DNA of 14,498 bases. Source: Candidatus Auribacterota bacterium (GTDB lineage Bacteria; Auribacterota; JAFGBW01). Each line of letters begins with the position of its first letter. Within the stretch, counting starts at the first letter, position 1. This document shows, piece after piece, positions 4,402 through 13,142 of this stretch. The notes beneath the pieces are model-generated. The model saw only the letters and a program-made list of their open reading frames with translations. It was not told the DNA's origin and made no database searches. The position numbers and the translations under genes were made by a program. The DNA is taken from contig JAFGBW010000299.1 in NCBI GenBank assembly GCA_016932965.1, positions 1-14,498 on the forward strand, given 5' to 3'.

Positions 4402-7400
4402 TTACCCTTCCACGGTACCTAAGTTGACGAAAGCCTGGTCGTTCATGATGAGGAAGGGCCGGTTTTCGAGGGAGAGTTTTCCGGAGTCAGAAAGTTTAAG
4501 GATCTGTAAAAGACCCATGCCGTAACCCATGGGGCCTCTGGAATAATAATGGGCCTGGAGGCGATACGGTGCTGCGCGGGGATTTTCAATGACAAAGCAC
4601 TCCGGACCATAGCCCTGGGTGATATCTGCGTAGAGTTTTCCGCCTGATGAAAGGCTGGGCTGGGAATAAAAGGCGTGGTTATTGGATTTATCATGAATAT
4701 GGAAATCCACGTCATTGGCATCGGTTTCCCAGGAAAGGATGAAACGGTATTGAGGTTTCAGTGTTGGATTGATGCGGTACTGCTGGATGATTTTTTTGAC
4801 CTGTTCATTGTCCTTGAGATGAGATGCGATGGAAGAAGAAAGAATAAGGGACAGATCTTCGGCCAAGATTTCTTTCACCTTCAGGAACCTGTTGTTGAAA
4901 TTCCGGCTGAGCCCCTCGGTCAGGGTATTGATGGCGGATCCAACTTCACCCTGGGCCAAAAGGGCCATGGCAAGGAGGTGAAATCCTGAAGGATGATCCG
5001 GCCTTTGGTCTTTTGCTTTTTGGAACGTATCTGCCGCCAGGGAGATGGCTTCAGGGATTTCCATGAGGCGTTCTCCTGCCCAGCGCCTGATATCGGCCCG
5101 GGACGGAAACAGGTCGATTAAAGAACCATATGCCCTGCAAGCTTCATTTGCATCGCCTGTTTTCATCAGGACTTCCCCAAGGGAGACATAGGCCATGGGA
5201 TCTCCGGGATTTTTGTTCAGCCAATTCAGAGTCAATTCAAGAGCCTTTTTCAGATCATTATTTTTGATCAGGGTTCTCATTTTTTCGTAATCCCCGCTCC
5301 AGGGGGGCACCTGGTCATTTTGTCTGACCCTGGGCTGGTCGATATGAACGGTGATGGTAACGATTCTTTCTCCGGGAGGAGTTTCACTCTGGAGAACCAC
5401 CCGCTCAGGAACGGATGCTCTTGGTTGAGGGGGAGGAGTGTCGCTGACAGTTTTATCGGACAACTCTGTCTGAGAGGTGATCCGGCTTTTTGTAACCGTC
5501 TCGGAAACTTCCTGCTCATCTCCTAATGTGAACTCCAGACCTTCTTCCATGCCGGCCGGTTTACCAGCAGCCATTTCAGAAGCCGGAGCAGCAGCCGGAA
5601 GAGCGAGTTTTTCTTTTTCTTCAGGCACAGACGATTCTTGTCTGGCATTTGATGCGGTTATCTGGTCCAATCCCATCTCCTCCATGGATTTTCTGGCTTC
5701 TTCTTTCACTCGAAGGAAATTCCTTCTTGGACGTTCGATCACAGGCACAGGCCGGGGGATGTCTGTTGGTTTACGGTGTACAACATTGATGCCGTCAGGC
5801 CCGATGGTCAAAATATCAGACAGGGCATTTCGGTCGATGTTATACCGCTGATAATCATATTCGGTTTCCAGAACCAATAAAGCGGTATAAGGGCACAGGA
5901 TTCTTTCGGTTGTGGAAAGCCGGATGGCTTCATTATGCATGGCATTTTTCATGTCTTTATCGGCGGCGCTTTTCTCCTTTTCAATCAACCTCAGAATACG
6001 GGCCTTTCCCCATTCTCTTTTCAGAAGCAAAGGATGGGTCGCCTGTGTTTTCAACGTCAGTTCTCTTCCATTCCAGCGAAGAACAAAGGGTTTGTCTTCC
6101 GAAACTTCGGCAAAAACAACTATTTCTTCTCCTTCCTGAATGCCTTCCAGCTTCTCCGGCCAGAACCAGACTGAATCCGGCACTTCGATCCTGATTTCCG
6201 CATGGACCGGTTTCAATAATTTCGCGGCAATATGGTTATCATCCATTTTCCCGTGTACAAACGTTCCGGGCGTTTTACCGCTCAATGTTATTTCTTTCAA
6301 AGCCCCTTCATCACGGTAAGCCGTGAAGCACAACGCATCCGTTCTATGGATTGAATTGGTTTCAGACAATTCGGCCCTCAATTGATTCATGTCAACGCAG
6401 CCGGCAGTGGGGATCCCATCAGAGACAAGGAGCAGCCGAATTTTTTGATCTGAGATCATGGCGGTCAACTTCTCAAAGGCATTTTCCATATTGGATGCGC
6501 CCAGAGGCCGGCGTTCTTTGAGTTTACCCAATCCTGTCCCGGACGAATACAGACCCATGTCCTCGATATCCTGATCAAAGGCAATAAGCCTGATTTCCCT
6601 GGCCCCTTTTTCCGTGAGTAAATGAAGTATCTGCTGAAGGCGATCCATATTGGATGAAAAGGAGACGGCCTGGGAGGCGGAGGTATCAATCAAAACAACC
6701 CATTTTTCAACCGGAACGGGATCATTTTTTCCCTCAGAGACAGGCTGGAATCTGACTGCGCAGAGGTTTCCCGCGCGCAGGGCATAATACTCCTCCTTAT
6801 TATTTGGCGGAATTTTCAGGATGAAATCCTCAACAGGAGTGAAGTCCTTTTTTTCAATGCTCATGATCTTCCAGTTCTTGATTTCTCCTCCCAAAGAAGA
6901 GGTGACAGCCGTTGAAGATTCCGGCTCCCCTTTATAAAAGGCTTTGATTTCAAGGCGTCCCAGTTTGGGAAGGCCTTTCAGGGGGAAATAGAATGTATTG
7001 GCGTTGTTCACCAGCAGTTCTGAATAGGAGAGGATGATATTTTTTTCAGCATTGGGGGGAATAGGGAACACCCGGGCCCTGAAATAATTTCCGCTGTCCT
7101 GTTCCAAAAGGGCCGGGTCCTGGCGGCGGTGGAGAAAATCTTCATAGACCTGCCGGGCCTTTTGTTTTTCAACCACTTCTCCCTCCTGCCAGTTCTGACC
7201 GATCTTCATGGCAAAGCGGCTGACACTTGCATTAGATGGAAGCAAGATGGCAAACCTTCCCTCTCTCTGACGGTTTTCAGGATTATAGAAGCTCATTTCC
7301 AGTTCCGTGAAGGCCGTAATGCCGTCTAAGACGACCCGGACCTTCAATTCCCGCATTTCCAGGCCGGTTCCGTCAGAAGCTGTCAGAGAAACAGGGGGAG

Positions 7401-7479
7401 TTTCTTCCGCCTGGGCGGAACACATCAGCCAGGCAAACAAGATAAAAATCATCGGCTTGTAATGACGAATGCTATTCAT
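4402..7479 (-). CDS. Secreted VIT-VWA-TPR protein with C-terminal DUF2135 domain
   Basis: A 1025-aa envelope or secreted protein. Residues 1-25 are a Sec signal peptide (basic start, hydrophobic core, AQA-E cleavage). Residues about 28-155 are a VIT domain (the RQREGRFAILLP and KARQVYEDF blocks are typical). Residues about 258-410 are a von Willebrand A domain with a complete MIDAS: D265-T-S-A-S269 (DxSxS), a Ser/Thr-containing loop near 328 and D354 in VSDG. The family's TPYTALLVLE-like block is at 529-538. Residues about 570-725 are a charged Pro/Glu-rich linker. TPR-like repeats follow (730-870), then a DUF2135/YfaP-like domain (about 910-1025) with WETDANDVDFHIHD and GYGPE. VWA and TPR parts usually mediate metal-dependent protein contacts, so a scaffold or adhesion role is likely; no catalytic domain is seen. 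AGGAGG (complement of 7485-7490), five bases before ATG 7479, fixes the start. It appears to be transcribed alone. Confidence 0.9.
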   Translation of the reverse strand: MNSIRHYKPMIFILFAWLMCSAQAEETPPVSLTASDGTGLEMRELKVRVVLDGITAFTELEMSFYNPENRQREGRFAILLPSNASVSRFAMKIGQNWQEGEVVEKQKARQVYEDFLHRRQDPALLEQDSGNYFRARVFPIPPNAEKNIILSYSELLVNNANTFYFPLKGLPKLGRLEIKAFYKGEPESSTAVTSSLGGEIKNWKIMSIEKKDFTPVEDFILKIPPNNKEEYYALRAGNLCAVRFQPVSEGKNDPVPVEKWVVLIDTSASQAVSFSSNMDRLQQILHLLTEKGAREIRLIAFDQDIEDMGLYSSGTGLGKLKERRPLGASNMENAFEKLTAMISDQKIRLLLVSDGIPTAGCVDMNQLRAELSETNSIHRTDALCFTAYRDEGALKEITLSGKTPGTFVHGKMDDNHIAAKLLKPVHAEIRIEVPDSVWFWPEKLEGIQEGEEIVVFAEVSEDKPFVLRWNGRELTLKTQATHPLLLKREWGKARILRLIEKEKSAADKDMKNAMHNEAIRLSTTERILCPYTALLVLETEYDYQRYNIDRNALSDILTIGPDGINVVHRKPTDIPRPVPVIERPRRNFLRVKEEARKSMEEMGLDQITASNARQESSVPEEKEKLALPAAAPASEMAAGKPAGMEEGLEFTLGDEQEVSETVTKSRITSQTELSDKTVSDTPPPQPRASVPERVVLQSETPPGERIVTITVHIDQPRVRQNDQVPPWSGDYEKMRTLIKNNDLKKALELTLNWLNKNPGDPMAYVSLGEVLMKTGDANEACRAYGSLIDLFPSRADIRRWAGERLMEIPEAISLAADTFQKAKDQRPDHPSGFHLLAMALLAQGEVGSAINTLTEGLSRNFNNRFLKVKEILAEDLSLILSSSIASHLKDNEQVKKIIQQYRINPTLKPQYRFILSWETDANDVDFHIHDKSNNHAFYSQPSLSSGGKLYADITQGYGPECFVIENPRAAPYRLQAHYYSRGPMGYGMGLLQILKLSDSGKLSLENRPFLIMNDQAFVNLGTVEG

Positions 7480-7654
7480 TTTTTCCTCCTATCTTTATTT
7501 TCTTCATGATCTTCATTGTGTTTTATACCCCTTTAGACAGGACTTCTTCCAATTTGTTCCTGAAAAAACATCCTATATTTACCAGGGAGTTACACGCAGA
7601 CCACAGAGGAAATGTTGCTTCGCATGCGCTCGCAAGTAAAACAAAACGATTCCC

Positions 7655-7911: not shown

Positions 7912-8526
7912 TTATTGGATTTTATATGCCTGGAGGGCCTGGAGGGTGGATCCGGGCGGCAATTTCTGCATGAGGACCTGGAGCAATTTAGCCGCGGCTT
8001 TGGCATCGGGGAGGGCGCGGTGGCTTTCTCTCTGTCTGATTTTCAGGGCGGAAGTGATCTGCTGGAGGGTATACCGTTCCAGATTGGGGAGAAGCTCCTT
8101 GGAGACCTTGAGGGTATCCACCAGCCACAAATTGACCTTGGGCCGGTTCATTTTTTGAAGCTGGTAATTGAGAAACGAGATATCAAAAGAAAGGTTATGC
8201 CCTGCTATCACGGAATTGGTGATGAACGCCATGATTTCATCTATTTTTGATTCCATCAAAGGCGCGTTTTTCACCATGTCATTGGTGATATGATTGATCC
8301 GGGTGACTTCTTCGGACAGGGGGATACAGGGATTGATCAGAGTTTCATAATTTCCCAGGAATTTATCAGCCTGGATGCGGACGATTCCCGCTTCAACGAT
8401 ACGGTCTCCATTATAGGGGTAAAGACCGGTGGTTTCAAAATCCAGGACGCAGAATTCAATCTCCCGGACCGGGGTGTTCAACAGATCGTTGCAGACATAA
8501 AAATCGTTCAGAAAAAAATCGAGCAT
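7912..8526 (-). CDS. DnaQ-like 3'-5' exonuclease (DEDDh family)
   Basis: A 204-aa protein of the DNA polymerase III epsilon / RNase T exonuclease family, which removes nucleotides from 3' ends with two metal ions. All five catalytic residues are visible: D29 and E31 in LDFETTG (ExoI motif), D115 in HNLSFD (ExoII), and H169 and D174 in SHRALPDA (ExoIII, DEDDh type). The conserved INHITNDMV block lies at 77-85. It has no polymerase, helicase or GIY-YIG extension, so it is a stand-alone exonuclease; a role as the replicative proofreading subunit or in repair cannot be told apart here. The start at 8526 lacks a clear Shine-Dalgarno sequence, and residues 1-22 precede the core domain, so a slightly later start is possible. 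It is divergent from the sigma-factor operon. Confidence 0.88.
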   Translation of the reverse strand: MLDFFLNDFYVCNDLLNTPVREIEFCVLDFETTGLYPYNGDRIVEAGIVRIQADKFLGNYETLINPCIPLSEEVTRINHITNDMVKNAPLMESKIDEIMAFITNSVIAGHNLSFDISFLNYQLQKMNRPKVNLWLVDTLKVSKELLPNLERYTLQQITSALKIRQRESHRALPDAKAAAKLLQVLMQKLPPGSTLQALQAYKIQ

Positions 8527-8615
8527 GAATCAGGTCATAGTTTTTTTTCAGACGGTTAGCAAGAAAAATGAATGAACTTTGCTGTCGCGTAAAATGAAAA
8601 AATAAAGTTAAATAA

Positions 8616-8669
8616 GTCTAAATGACATCAAATAACCGGAACTTCTGGAAGAAAAAACGGTCTAAATGA
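8616..8669 (+). repeat. 10-bp direct repeat GTCTAAATGA upstream of the sigma gene
   Basis: GTCTAAATGA occurs at 8616-8625 and again at 8660-8669, 44 bp apart, close to four helical turns. The second copy contains both the predicted ECF -10 element and the annotated start codon. The repeat may be a regulator site or the remnant of a duplication; chance is possible in this AT-rich stretch. Confidence 0.35.
8638..8665 (+). promoter_or_regulatory. ECF-type (SigE-like) promoter for the sigma operon
   Basis: GGAACTT (8638-8644) is the exact -35 consensus of RpoE-type ECF sigma factors, and after 16 bp comes TCTAA (8661-8665), a good match to their -10 element. Transcription would start near 8671-8673, just inside the annotated reading frame. 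The sigma gene is thus probably autoregulated, and its usable start codon may be downstream of 8666. Confidence 0.62.
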
Positions 8670-9283
8670 ATGGAAAAATCAACGTGATCGAATATATTGA
8701 TTCAGGAACTGACGAATATTTAATCAGGTCATTTCTGGAGAATAAGCCGGAGGCGTTTGATACCTTGATCACCCGATATAAAAACCGTATTTTCAACCTG
8801 TGCTATCGCTTTCTTGGCCATCATGAAGACGCCAATGACTGCGCCCAGGAGACCTTCATCAAAGCCTGCAAACACTTAAAAAACTTTAAATTTCAATCTT
8901 CCTTTTACACCTGGCTTTACACGATCGCGGTGAACACCTGTAAAAACAGGTTGAATTCCAGGGAAATGCGACACAGAAAATACATGTTTTCAACGGACCA
9001 GCCGGTCAATACGGAAGACGGTATGCTCATGCCTGAACTAAAAAGCACCGGGCCGACTCCTTTTGTCCAGACAGCCCAAAAAGAGGAGGATAAACAAATC
9101 CAGGAAGAAATCAACGCGCTGTCTGAAGACTATAAAACCATAATCCTGTTGCGGGATATTGAAGGTTTTTCCTACGATGAGATTGCATCCATAACGAATC
9201 TGAAGATGGGGACGGTCAAATCCAAAATAGCGAGGGCGCGTGATGTACTTAAAGAGAAACTCAAAAGGAGAAACATCCTTTGA
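8666..9283 (+). CDS. ECF sigma factor (RpoE-like, sigma-70 family)
   Basis: A 205-aa extracytoplasmic-function sigma factor that would direct RNA polymerase to stress or envelope promoters. Residues about 25-97 are region 2 (AFDTLITRYKNRIFNLCYRF, DANDCAQETFIKA, then FYTWLYTIAVNTCKNRL, the -10 recognition and melting part). Residues about 145-200 are region 4 with a helix-turn-helix (LRDIEGFSYDEIA, then MGTVKSKIARAR). No regions 1 or 3 are present, as usual for the class. The stop TGA (9281-9283) overlaps the TTG start of the anti-sigma gene, so the two are translationally coupled and should be made in similar amounts. An ECF promoter at 8638-8665 predicts that transcripts start after the ATG at 8666. 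GTG 8684 (V7), with GGA at 8672-8674, is an alternative start that keeps both domains whole. Confidence 0.93.
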   Translation: MNGKINVIEYIDSGTDEYLIRSFLENKPEAFDTLITRYKNRIFNLCYRFLGHHEDANDCAQETFIKACKHLKNFKFQSSFYTWLYTIAVNTCKNRLNSREMRHRKYMFSTDQPVNTEDGMLMPELKSTGPTPFVQTAQKEEDKQIQEEINALSEDYKTIILLRDIEGFSYDEIASITNLKMGTVKSKIARARDVLKEKLKRRNIL

Positions 9284-10605
9284 ACTGTGAACAGGTAAAA
9301 GAAATGTTATCCGCCTATCTGGATGAGGCGGTTTCGGGGGAGGAAAAAAATCTCCTGGAACAACATCTCCTGGGATGTTCTGTTTGTTCCCGCGAATATG
9401 ATTCTTTGAAAGAATACCGGAAACTGATGACTGGACTTGAACAGGTGAAAGCGCCTGATCATTTTTTAGATGAATTTCATCGGCGTCTGGGTCAGGAAAT
9501 TTCCCCAGCAAAGGAAGAGAGCGTACTTTCTTTCAGATATCTTTACAGGACCATCGGCGTAGCGGCCGTTTTCTTCATAGCGATTTGGGGCTACTATCAT
9601 TTCATTCCTGAAAAAGGGAAAATGCTCGCATTAGCCCCCAGGACACCTGCCCCGGTTTCTGCTGATTCTCACGATCAGGATAATAAAACTGAATCCGGCA
9701 TAACTGAAGAACTGACGACCCTAACCATTTCTTCCAAGAAAAAGGAAGAAACCGCTTTTCTTGATGTTAAAAAACGAAACGAAGAAGGTGCGAGGCAGAG
9801 ACAATCCTTTTTGTTTGAACAGAAAGAAGCAAGAAAAGGCGCGGCGGACCGGTCCATTGCCGAACCGCTTCCTCCCTCCCCATTGGGACAAATCTCCGGG
9901 CAGGAACGAATGATGAAGAAGCCGATGTCCGAAACAGAAAACTCAAAAAAACTAACTGAAGCTCCTAAAAACTCTCTTTTGGGGATCTCCGATCGCAAGG
10001 ATGCTTCACAGCTTTCTGTTCGGCCTGCCCCCGCTGCAGGGGAAGGGGTTTACAGCCGGCGAATTCAGCCTGAAGCAGAAAAAGAGCTGGTCCAGCAAAT
10101 CTCCTCCGGTTCAGCTGTTTCTTCTCCTGTCCTTCTTGATGAGGTTATCAGCCAAAAGGAAGCTCCGGTCATTTTCACACTCATGATACAACCTTCTGAA
10201 GAAGAACACTTGCGCGGGGACAGCCTGGATTCTTCACTTATGATGAAGCAGGACAAGGAAGAAGTACAATCCGGCACAAAACAGTCCGCTTCCGAACTAC
10301 AACGATTTATACCCAAAATGAAAGACTCTCACAAAGAGGCCGCCATAGGCCTTCGCCAGGAGGTCCTTGGCCTGGTCAAGGACGTCAAAGGAGAAATTCT
10401 GGAGGAGGAAAAGGATAAAACAGAAATTGCCGATACGGTTCCTTCGGTCCTTGCGCTGATTCCCGGAGAGAGCTATCAACCTTTTCTTGACGGGCTTTCG
10501 AAAATATCCGATCTCTCCGGGACTGTTCCAGAGAGGGCGACATCTTCAAAACCAGCACAAAAGATCAAGGTGCGGGTCCGGTTCAAATACCCGGTCAATG
10601 AGTAA
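9280..10605 (+). CDS. Zinc-finger anti-sigma factor with long extracytoplasmic domain
   Basis: A 441-aa single-pass membrane protein that should hold the upstream sigma factor inactive. Residues 1-55 form a ZAS/zf-HC2 domain with C3 and H29-xxx-C33-xx-C36 as metal ligands. A membrane helix lies at about 88-108 (TIGVAAVFFIAIWGYYHF), so the rest faces the periplasm. Residues 115-290 are low-complexity, charged and probably disordered. Residues about 296-437 look folded (APVIFTLMIQP; LRQEVLGLVKDVKGEIL; IPGESYQPFLDGLSKI; QKIKVRVRFKYP) and recall the DUF4349/DUF2275 type of envelope domain found in some anti-sigma proteins (inference by pattern). The start is TTG 9280 inside TTGA, with AAAAGGAG nine bases upstream. 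It lies between the sigma and kinase genes and is probably released by proteolysis or ligand binding at the periplasmic domain. Confidence 0.85.
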   Translation: MNCEQVKEMLSAYLDEAVSGEEKNLLEQHLLGCSVCSREYDSLKEYRKLMTGLEQVKAPDHFLDEFHRRLGQEISPAKEESVLSFRYLYRTIGVAAVFFIAIWGYYHFIPEKGKMLALAPRTPAPVSADSHDQDNKTESGITEELTTLTISSKKKEETAFLDVKKRNEEGARQRQSFLFEQKEARKGAADRSIAEPLPPSPLGQISGQERMMKKPMSETENSKKLTEAPKNSLLGISDRKDASQLSVRPAPAAGEGVYSRRIQPEAEKELVQQISSGSAVSSPVLLDEVISQKEAPVIFTLMIQPSEEEHLRGDSLDSSLMMKQDKEEVQSGTKQSASELQRFIPKMKDSHKEAAIGLRQEVLGLVKDVKGEILEEEKDKTEIADTVPSVLALIPGESYQPFLDGLSKISDLSGTVPERATSSKPAQKIKVRVRFKYPVNE

Positions 10606-10697
10606 GAAATATCCGGGTATTTTCCGATCAACCCCATGCGCTGTTGGTCCGAAGAGGAAAACCCGACAGACGATTTAATCAGGCAGCGGACAGCCGC

Positions 10698-13142
10698 ATG
10701 GAAAAAAAACACGCCATGAATGAAGAAAGCAAGCATCAGATATTTGAAAAACTGGCCCAATCCGTATCAGCGGTTGAAATCCTGAAAACCGATTTCAACC
10801 TGCCGGGTTACAACCTGGTCCGTTTTCTGGGAAAAGGGGCGATGGGGCTGGTTTTTGAATGTGAGAACATTTTCAACGGAAACCGTTACGCCGTCAAGAT
10901 ATTGAACCCGCAATACACACAGGATGAAAAAATCAACCAGCAGTTTGAGCAGGAAGCCAGGCTGATCGCAAAACTGAAACATGAAAACATCATTTCTGTC
11001 TTTGACCTGAAAAAAACAGAAGGAATCTATTATCTATTGATGGAACTTTGTCCGGGAAAATCACTCTCCAAGGTGCTGAAAGAAGAGGAACTCCCTTTTC
11101 CGGTTATTTTACACATAGTAGAACGGCTGTTAGATGCTCTGAAATACGCCCATGAGAAAAAAATCGTGCATCATGACGTCAAGCCCGGCAACGTCATGAT
11201 GGTGGAAGGACACCGTCCGATTTTATGCGATTTTGGATTAGCGACCATTCAAACCGATGTCATGCCTGCATCTGTATTAAAAAGACCTTTTGGAACACCC
11301 CACTTCATGTCTCCGGAGAAGATCAGGGGGGACTGGACATCCCGCAATGAACACTCAAGCGATATATTCGCCATGGGTGTTTTGTTTTATTACATGGTGA
11401 CCAGACATTATCCCTTTCCCGGAACCAAGAGGGAAGAACTGTATCACCAGATCCAATATATGCGGCCCGTGGATCCCATGGAGATAAACCCCTGTATTCC
11501 TCTTTCCATCAACGCCATCATCCATAAATTCCTGGAAAAAGATTCGCGTGACCGGTATCGTTCAGCCGGGGAAGCGCTAACGGACATTTCCAATTTCCGA
11601 AGCAACCGGCCCATTTCCCTATTTAAAAAATCATGGACATACACTTTCATTCAGGCGATCCTGGCCCATAAAATCCGGTCTCTGGTGACCGGAACCCTGC
11701 TGTTCATTTTCTTATTCCTGACCTCTTTTTTTGTTCTTAAAAAAATACGTTCCGACTCTCTATGGATTCCTGATCCATACGTCAAAACGCTATTTTCAAA
11801 AATCGGATTTGAAAACAAATGGAACGCACTGGACCCTGTGCGCATGGCCGTTGTTTACGAGTCCAGCCTGCATGAATTTTTTGACATACAAAAAAATTCC
11901 CTGACATCCATTCCAAAGAAAAATTTCCTTCTTTTTCAAAAAACCCCATCTGTTCCCGCAGACTGCCTGTTCAGGATCCAAACACAAGGGCCCTTTCCAC
12001 TTGAAGGACAATGGGGGCTTTTTTACGGCGACGCCCAAACCAGCCGCGAAAACCATCGGGGGATTTATTTCATGATCTCCTCCGCAGGAATCGATATTCA
12101 TTACCCGCACGCAACAGCCCCTGTTTTAGCCCATGTTGATGTAGAAAATGATTTCAGGGGAACAGCAGCGGAACTAAAAAAAGAATTTCCTTTCCTGGAA
12201 TTCAGAGTGAATAAGCGTCTCATCATCCGGCTCAATCTGCTTTTTTTCCCTTTTTCATCCTCCTCATTCGGAGTGGTATCCATGAACTCAAACCGGACAT
12301 TTCAAAAACCGGTTTTTTATCATAAAGACCCTCACTTTTCCGGCAGCGCTCTGGATGCCATGCTGGGACTTGTCGCTTCCGATTCGCCCTTAAAAATCGC
12401 GCTGGATCTTCTCAATAAAGGGGAATACACCGCAGCGGCGAATGAACTGGAAAATCTGCAAACAAGGACATCTGACCTCAACCTTCTTTCCGAAATCGCC
12501 TATTACCTGGCATTTTGTTTTTTCAACGGGAACCGGAACGGACCGTCCTTTACTCTGCTTGAAAAACAGCTTCCGGCAATCAGGAAGGGCAAGAAAAACG
12601 AGGTACAGCTGCTCTTAAACTGGGTCAACTATCTGGCCAGTCCGCAGGCTGATCTGGCAGAAACCATTCCGCACCGGATGAACCAAAAACAGGGGGAACG
12701 GCTGCTGGTCCTTCTTTTTCTGAAGCGTTTTCCTTCTGAAGAAGCCATAGAAAAAGAAAACGGTCCGGAACGTTATTTCCGGGAATTTTCAAAATTAAAA
12801 CAGATCGATCACCGGTATCTTGTTGGCGTAGCCAGGCTCATAGCAAAACAATACCTGAAGGAAAATCCGGAAAAGGCTCTTTTATTCATGAAGAAACATC
12901 ATGCCCTTTTTTATGAAAAAGATCCCTTCGACAGCGAAACCGGCCTTGCTTTCTGGATTCATATAACGGAAGAGCTGAAAAAAGAAAAAAAATTTCAGGA
13001 AGCCATCCGGCTGTACGAGAATCTGATTCAGGAATATCCTGAGAGGTCTGAAGTCATTCGTACCGCCAATTTGGGTCTGGAGGAATGCTATCTCATTCTT
13101 GGAGAATACAAAAAGGCGGCATTTTACAGAAAGAAGTCATGA
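10698..13142 (+). CDS. Hanks-type membrane Ser/Thr protein kinase with extracytoplasmic TPR-like region
   Basis: An 814-aa kinase (numbering from ATG 10698). Residues about 38-300 are the catalytic domain: Gly loop GKGAMG (45-50), ATP-binding K67, helix-C E86, catalytic H-H-D160-V-K-P-G-N165, D178-F-G, and GTPHFMSPE (207 = Glu of the APE motif). HHD replaces HRD, a non-RD form. A membrane helix at about 328-348 (LVTGTLLFIFLFLTSFFVL) puts some 460 residues outside. The first part of these (about 400-550) is beta-rich and may be a concanavalin-like sandwich. The rest holds TPR-like helical repeats, clearest near the end (KKFQEAIRLYENLIQEYPE). No PASTA repeats are seen. A longer frame from TTG 10644 exists but lacks a ribosome site and homology; ATG 10716 is also possible. 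The gene follows the anti-sigma gene after 92 bp and probably shares its operon, giving a sigma/anti-sigma/kinase envelope-signalling unit. Confidence 0.9.
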   Translation: MEKKHAMNEESKHQIFEKLAQSVSAVEILKTDFNLPGYNLVRFLGKGAMGLVFECENIFNGNRYAVKILNPQYTQDEKINQQFEQEARLIAKLKHENIISVFDLKKTEGIYYLLMELCPGKSLSKVLKEEELPFPVILHIVERLLDALKYAHEKKIVHHDVKPGNVMMVEGHRPILCDFGLATIQTDVMPASVLKRPFGTPHFMSPEKIRGDWTSRNEHSSDIFAMGVLFYYMVTRHYPFPGTKREELYHQIQYMRPVDPMEINPCIPLSINAIIHKFLEKDSRDRYRSAGEALTDISNFRSNRPISLFKKSWTYTFIQAILAHKIRSLVTGTLLFIFLFLTSFFVLKKIRSDSLWIPDPYVKTLFSKIGFENKWNALDPVRMAVVYESSLHEFFDIQKNSLTSIPKKNFLLFQKTPSVPADCLFRIQTQGPFPLEGQWGLFYGDAQTSRENHRGIYFMISSAGIDIHYPHATAPVLAHVDVENDFRGTAAELKKEFPFLEFRVNKRLIIRLNLLFFPFSSSSFGVVSMNSNRTFQKPVFYHKDPHFSGSALDAMLGLVASDSPLKIALDLLNKGEYTAAANELENLQTRTSDLNLLSEIAYYLAFCFFNGNRNGPSFTLLEKQLPAIRKGKKNEVQLLLNWVNYLASPQADLAETIPHRMNQKQGERLLVLLFLKRFPSEEAIEKENGPERYFREFSKLKQIDHRYLVGVARLIAKQYLKENPEKALLFMKKHHALFYEKDPFDSETGLAFWIHITEELKKEKKFQEAIRLYENLIQEYPERSEVIRTANLGLEECYLILGEYKKAAFYRKKS

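Follow-up and report, generated by a model that had tools for sequence, protein, structure and literature searches.

A promoter abutting the start codon of its own ECF sigma factor gene is conserved across phyla and may serve negative autoregulation

In a 14,498-nucleotide stretch of DNA from a Candidatus Auribacterota bacterium (the window), a promoter of the RpoE type ends directly at the ATG of an ECF sigma factor gene, and this placement was found again in orthologues of three phyla. The best explanation, in which we place moderate confidence, is that the site (8638-8665, forward strand), judged by sequence comparison, is a true promoter at which the sigma factor encoded just after it acts. 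By the same explanation this promoter would yield an RNA for the anti-sigma factor and the sigma factor itself would come from an upstream promoter, which would amount to negative autoregulation. The usual reading of an ECF operon is that of a positive feedback switch. Should a promoter that lies before a sigma gene be able to leave this gene out of the transcript it makes, the motif by itself would not reveal the sign of the feedback. The case also indicates that start codons and promoters, when annotated separately, can clash in a conserved and informative way. It is simple to test, since the regulon apparently consists of two promoters, the geometry is fixed and the +1 is predicted. The idea of the circuit and its parts are already known. 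In limited literature searches, no description of a conserved overlap of self-promoter and start codon across phyla was found.

The sigma operon and the elements of its promoter

The sigma gene (8666-9283, forward strand) encodes a protein of 205 amino acids. Pfam assigned Sigma70_r2 to residues 34-99 and Sigma70_r4_2 to residues 144-192 and gave no other domain, and the protein matches the ECF chains 6in7, 1or7 and 5wuq. It belongs with the ECF (group IV) factors by its sigma2 and sigma4 domains only and by the adjacent anti-sigma gene. The nearest NCBIfam model is TIGR02939 (RpoE). The score was 149.1 bits, below the curated cutoff of 236.15 for an RpoE equivalog. The anti-sigma gene (9280-10605, forward strand) encodes a zinc-finger protein (zf-HC2, PF13490), and its TTG start overlaps the sigma stop codon. 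The order of sigma and anti-sigma genes is kept in the orthologue loci examined. The strong Shine-Dalgarno sequence of the anti-sigma gene, AAAAGGAG (9263-9270, forward strand), lies within the sigma gene, with a duplex energy of -8.7 kcal/mol versus -3.3 kcal/mol at the sigma ATG of the window. The next gene (10644-13142, forward strand), which by Pfam encodes a Ser/Thr protein kinase with a TPR-like C-terminus, possibly belongs to the same operon. On the reverse strand, a DnaQ-like exonuclease (7912-8526) was recognised by ORF and domain search, and a VIT-domain/TPR protein (4402-7479) is the predicted target.

The promoter is composed of a -35 element GGAACTT (8638-8644), a purine-rich spacer of 15 nt (8645-8659) and a -10 element GTCTAA (8660-8665), all on the forward strand, and the sigma ATG (8666-8668) follows immediately. 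If the -10 element is read as TCTAA (8661-8665), the spacer is 16 nt (8645-8660). The bases and coordinates of the preliminary description, which used this second reading (GGAACTT at 8638-8644, N16, TCTAA at 8661-8665, ATG at 8666), were confirmed exactly. The site has the sigma-E-type pattern GGAACTT-N15/16-GTCTAA/TCTRA, and the exact pattern occurs once in the window versus a mean of 0.01 in shuffles. Relative to the predicted +1, the ATG would lie at about -6 to -4. Since the TAA of the -10 element is a stop codon in the sigma frame, the 205-residue ORF can have no start before ATG 8666. Its Shine-Dalgarno-like sequence, GGAAGA (8647-8652, forward strand), is weak and lies inside the spacer. 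Two minor features overlap this region. The ten-base direct repeat GTCTAAATGA is found at 8616-8625 and 8660-8669, 44 bp apart, and the first copy lacks a -35 element. An upstream ORF of 15 codons, MTSNNRNFWKKKRSK (8622-8669, forward strand), ends with a TGA that shares bases with the sigma ATG (ATGA), an overlap of the kind met in translational coupling; no equivalent of this ORF and overlap was seen among the orthologues.

Promoters of Escherichia coli RpoE (sigma-E) have the form GGAACTT-N16-TCTGA. The window resembles that system in the type and spacing of the -35 and -10 elements and in the nearest curated model, TIGR02939, but it differs in scoring below the model cutoff and in having an anti-sigma factor of the zf-HC2 and not the RseA type. 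The rpoE gene of E. coli is described as positively autoregulated (PMC8103513), unlike what is proposed for the window.

Conservation of the junction and extent of the regulon

The three nearest relatives in the phylum (L002, L003 and L004), with sigma identities of 45-47% in the orthologue alignment, carry GGAACTT-N15-GTCTNN with the ATG directly after it. A profile search of 384 genomes gave further orthologues in other phyla (L106, L107, L108, L124, L125 and L126). The -10 element abuts the sigma ATG as in the window in the first five of these, and four bases (ATAA) stand between the two in L126. With the window included, GGAAC[C/T]T-N15/16-GTCT is present in all ten orthologues from three phyla, and the distance from the -10 element to the ATG is zero in nine and 4 nt in one. 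A quick tree of 87 ECFs, used as the ECF phylogeny, groups the ten in a single clade (SH-aLRT 94). The zero distance is partly inherited among these related genes, because nothing but an insertion precisely at the junction would alter the spacing. When GGAACYT-N15/16-GTCTNN-ATG was searched in the 384 genomes, 41 matches were obtained versus 24 for the reversed control; seven of the 41 are orthologues and one (L159) is a distant ECF gene. A contig scan for the named relatives returned a distant match only. Other ECF genes with similar promoters have the -10 element at 14-16 nt (L030, L064, L091, L109 and L111) or at 24-29 nt (L011 and L059) from the ATG. An unrelated ECF gene (L083, GGAACAT-N15-GTCTAT-ATG) was considered as a second collision and rejected, since further ATGs lie 9 and 12 nt on.

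A genome-wide scan for GGAACTT-N15-17-TCTAA had been suggested in the preliminary description as the way to define the regulon. The scan gave a single match in the 3.14-Mb genome (four in the reversed control), and the regulon emerged instead from GGAAC-N17/18-GTCTAA, which occurs exactly twice in the genome, both times in the window, with six reversed-control matches. Looser versions of the motif were no commoner in this genome than their reversed controls. Rarity of the motif alone was rejected as proof of a promoter because reversed controls were as common or commoner, and the promoter is judged real by its position and conservation. One of the two sites is at the sigma ATG. The other, GGAACAA-N15-GTCTAA (7533-7560, reverse strand), lies 1.1 kb away, with its -10 element 53 nt upstream of the ATG of the VIT-domain gene; the predicted +1 is A7526, and the gene has an AGGAGG Shine-Dalgarno sequence.

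Nine relatives were searched with GGAACYT-N15/16-GTCTAA. Among the six with exact GTCTAA promoters, five have two sites per genome and the sixth has three, reversed-control matches were zero, and one site is always at the sigma ATG. The second site precedes a neighbour gene, which encodes a VIT/vWA protein at L164, L168, L169 and L195 and a DUF4139 protein at L165; the L195 target lies on another contig of G385, and the L166 site runs to the contig end. A variant -10 element (GTCGGT or GTCAAG) stands upstream of the VIT/vWA gene in L066, L067 and L068, and the VIT/vWA gene adjoins the sigma operon in these three as well as in L164, L168 and L169. The distance from the -10 element to the ATG is 30-219 nt at the target promoters. 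Therefore, the tight placement belongs to the sigma gene in particular and is no general feature of the promoters of this sigma factor. The earlier claim that the RpoE-type promoter is recognised by its own sigma factor gains support from the motif kept in ten orthologues and from the two-site regulon. No paper tying VIT domains to an ECF/anti-sigma pair was found in limited literature searches. As separate observations, L164 and L165 come from two species of one genus, and the second sigma promoter serves a VIT/vWA gene in the former and a DUF4139 gene in the latter. L176 (G000:C135:20404-20431, reverse strand) carries GGAACTTTTTTGGAATGATTTTGTCAGA 47 nt upstream of the gene for a 484-residue, probably exported protein, shows a CA initiator as expected, and is a possible third regulon member.

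Predicted transcription start and origin of the sigma message

A pyrimidine-purine (YR) step is the usual initiator of transcription. In the initiator counts, which leave out L107, this step falls on the 6th and 7th bases after the -10 element in eight of eight independent sigma promoters, and in L126 as well, versus a frequency of 0.34 at later codon boundaries. The same holds for eight of ten target promoters. A YR step at the 2nd and 3rd bases of the sigma promoters is merely the TG of the ATG. ECF structures were used as a further guide, in which the GTT of sigma-H promoters is at -11 to -9 (PMC6411747), and sigma-L tolerates a variation of a few bases (PMC6372665). By this guide the +1 is expected 5-6 bases after the A of the ATG. 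Initiator and structures together give G8672, the first base of codon 3, as the predicted +1 of the window (forward strand). A start at codon 3 means that the RNA made by the sigma factor would be without the sigma AUG. The equivalent +1 of L126 is the G of its ATG, so that its start codon is also lost, and the sigma-made RNA of all ten orthologues would lack the sigma AUG. These predictions agree with the preliminary description, in which the transcript began near 8672 and the ATG could not be used from its own promoter: the conserved YR step is at exactly 8671/8672, downstream of the ATG. The arrangement that goes with positive autoregulation, a self-recognised promoter followed by a sigma start that can be translated, was not seen, as the -10 element abuts the only conserved start.

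The ATG is in frame in ten of ten orthologues, and residues 2-15 vary in sequence and length in the alignment. Orthologues that keep residues 1-6 and lose the motif would have spoken against the collision; the opposite was seen, as the motif and the ATG are kept and residues 2-6 are variable. Codons 7-12 of L106, L107 and L124 differ by synonymous changes and still encode KQG[RG]LF. Considering the conserved in-frame ATG and these synonymous codons, translation from the ATG probably does yield sigma protein, from an mRNA that would have to begin upstream. A candidate vegetative promoter, TTGCTG-N18-TAAAGT (8579-8608, forward strand; boxes at 8579-8584 and 8603-8608), reaches p=0.10 versus shuffles in the window. 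The combined p for all ten orthologues, a set that includes near-duplicates, is 0.01. In the genus of L106, L107 and L124, a TATAAT block is conserved within diverged surroundings at 31-34 nt before the ECF -35 element, and L125 has TTGACG-N17-TATCCT upstream. From these sequences, a vegetative promoter appears convincing in part of the orthologue group and weak in the window. The spacers are purine-rich, often with GGA, at the sigma genes and pyrimidine-rich at the targets (p=0.002), which would be expected if the sigma spacer doubles as the ribosome-binding leader of a longer RNA. The ribosome site of the anti-sigma gene is stronger than that of the sigma gene in eight of ten orthologues (mean -7.8 versus -3.1 kcal/mol, p=0.02), and the strength of this site suggests that the anti-sigma factor can be translated independently. 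A clear Shine-Dalgarno sequence at the sigma gene is absent in half of the orthologues.

Another explanation, which we regard as unlikely, is that translation of the sigma-made RNA begins at a later codon or one other than AUG, such as GTG 8684, giving a shorter sigma factor, hence two forms, and positive autoregulation. In its favour, GTG 8684 lies in the sigma reading frame, and the sigma factor is variable N-terminal to D16. The literature also offers counterpoints to our proposal. Positive autoregulation is found in most ECF factors (PMC8103513), and non-AUG starts are known in ECF genes, such as the GTC of Streptomyces sigR (PMC5472188) and the non-canonical starts used from P3, a promoter inside the sigE gene of Mycobacterium tuberculosis (PMC10027907). 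However, GTG 8684 is not conserved. Codons 2-20 contain no in-frame ATG, GTG or TTG in six of ten orthologues; the other four have GTG at codon 7 (window), GTG at codon 11 (L126) or a start at codon 18 (L124 and L125). No start is common to the ten, nor is any non-AUG codon. Moreover, a +1 at 8672 would leave a leader of 12 nt with a weak GGAA site. A common downstream CTG, ATA or ATC start with a Shine-Dalgarno sequence was likewise tried and rejected, a good site being present in L003 only. The restart at GTG 8684 and the two sigma forms of the preliminary description were thus not borne out. Its other option, in which a separate promoter further upstream serves the ATG, agrees best with the data, but what follows from it is a transcript with the anti-sigma and without the sigma, not a second isoform.

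Proposed feedback and comparison with known circuits

The circuit that we favour is one of anti-sigma feedback. Another upstream promoter, probably vegetative, would supply sigma and anti-sigma together. Freed sigma factor would activate the VIT/vWA target gene as its normal output and would also fire the promoter on its own start codon, with RNA starting at about G8672 inside codon 3. This sigma-dependent RNA would carry the anti-sigma gene and later genes and no sigma start. RNA polymerase-sigma on the start codon may also hinder the upstream transcript. The outcome would be a self-limiting (negative) feedback. The motif, its conservation, its restricted genomic occurrence and the common initiator were computed; the start site, the upstream promoter and the feedback sign are what we infer. 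More tentatively, and with slightly less than an even chance in our estimate, a widespread ECF clade may keep its autoregulatory promoter exactly on the start codon, so that the transcript made by the sigma factor is always without the sigma AUG and negative feedback through the anti-sigma factor is forced, the same short piece of DNA serving two transcripts.

The sequence and its conservation fit a predicted loop of the sigH-rshA type, where a sigma-dependent RNA would carry the anti-sigma gene and no sigma start. In Corynebacterium glutamicum (PMC3489674), similarly, the sigma gene is transcribed from housekeeping promoters and a SigH promoter inside sigH drives rshA only. That promoter lies within sigH and is of the GGAATA/GTT type, whereas the promoter in the window is of the GGAACTT/GTCTAA type, abuts the start codon and is conserved in position across three phyla. 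The sigE gene of M. tuberculosis, with P1, P2 and P3 (PMC10027907), also combines a housekeeping promoter with promoters at or inside the start of an ECF gene. However, its P2 is leaderless and made by SigE and its P3 is made by SigH, whereas in the window the +1 is predicted 6 nt past the A of the ATG, and the orthologues keep no second start.

Bound holoenzyme has precedents as a repressor. Pseudomonas syringae HrpL is an ECF factor that represses its own gene from its own promoter sequence, RNAP-HrpL occluding the hrpL promoter (PMC5263251), and Streptomyces coelicolor sigma-E can repress directly (PMC10771440). The site in the window could accordingly be an operator, at which polymerase-sigma covers the start codon, obstructs the upstream promoter and makes little productive RNA. 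This is quite improbable, as the YR initiator is conserved exactly as at the targets, which suggests real initiation, and the consensus elements are unusually good. The HrpL case also differs in its divergent promoter, in occlusion of activator sites and in the lack of an anti-sigma transcript.

Positive autoregulation through a leaderless mRNA, with the A of the ATG as +1 as at P2 of M. tuberculosis sigE, is more doubtful still. It would suit the orthologues without a clear Shine-Dalgarno sequence, and leaderless spacing does occur after RpoE-type -10 elements, as the ECF genes L007 (ATG 5 nt after it) and L098 (6 nt) would give leaderless mRNAs. However, it needs a +1 right after the -10 element, and ECF structures put the +1 several bases on (PMC6411747, PMC6372665). 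In eight of eight promoters the conserved initiator lies 6 nt further on than the A of the start codon, so that the prediction does not place +1 on this first base. Finally, it is scarcely credible that the motif or the start codon was misassigned and that the locus is an ordinary one, for although the loose motif matches about as often as its reversed pattern at this genome size, ten orthologues, a two-site regulon and a common initiator contradict coincidence.

Apart from these genes, four ECF genes (L005, L110, L112 and L120) have a start codon inside or upstream of the predicted -10 element. In L005 and L110 there is no later canonical start before region 2, save a TTG at its edge in L110.
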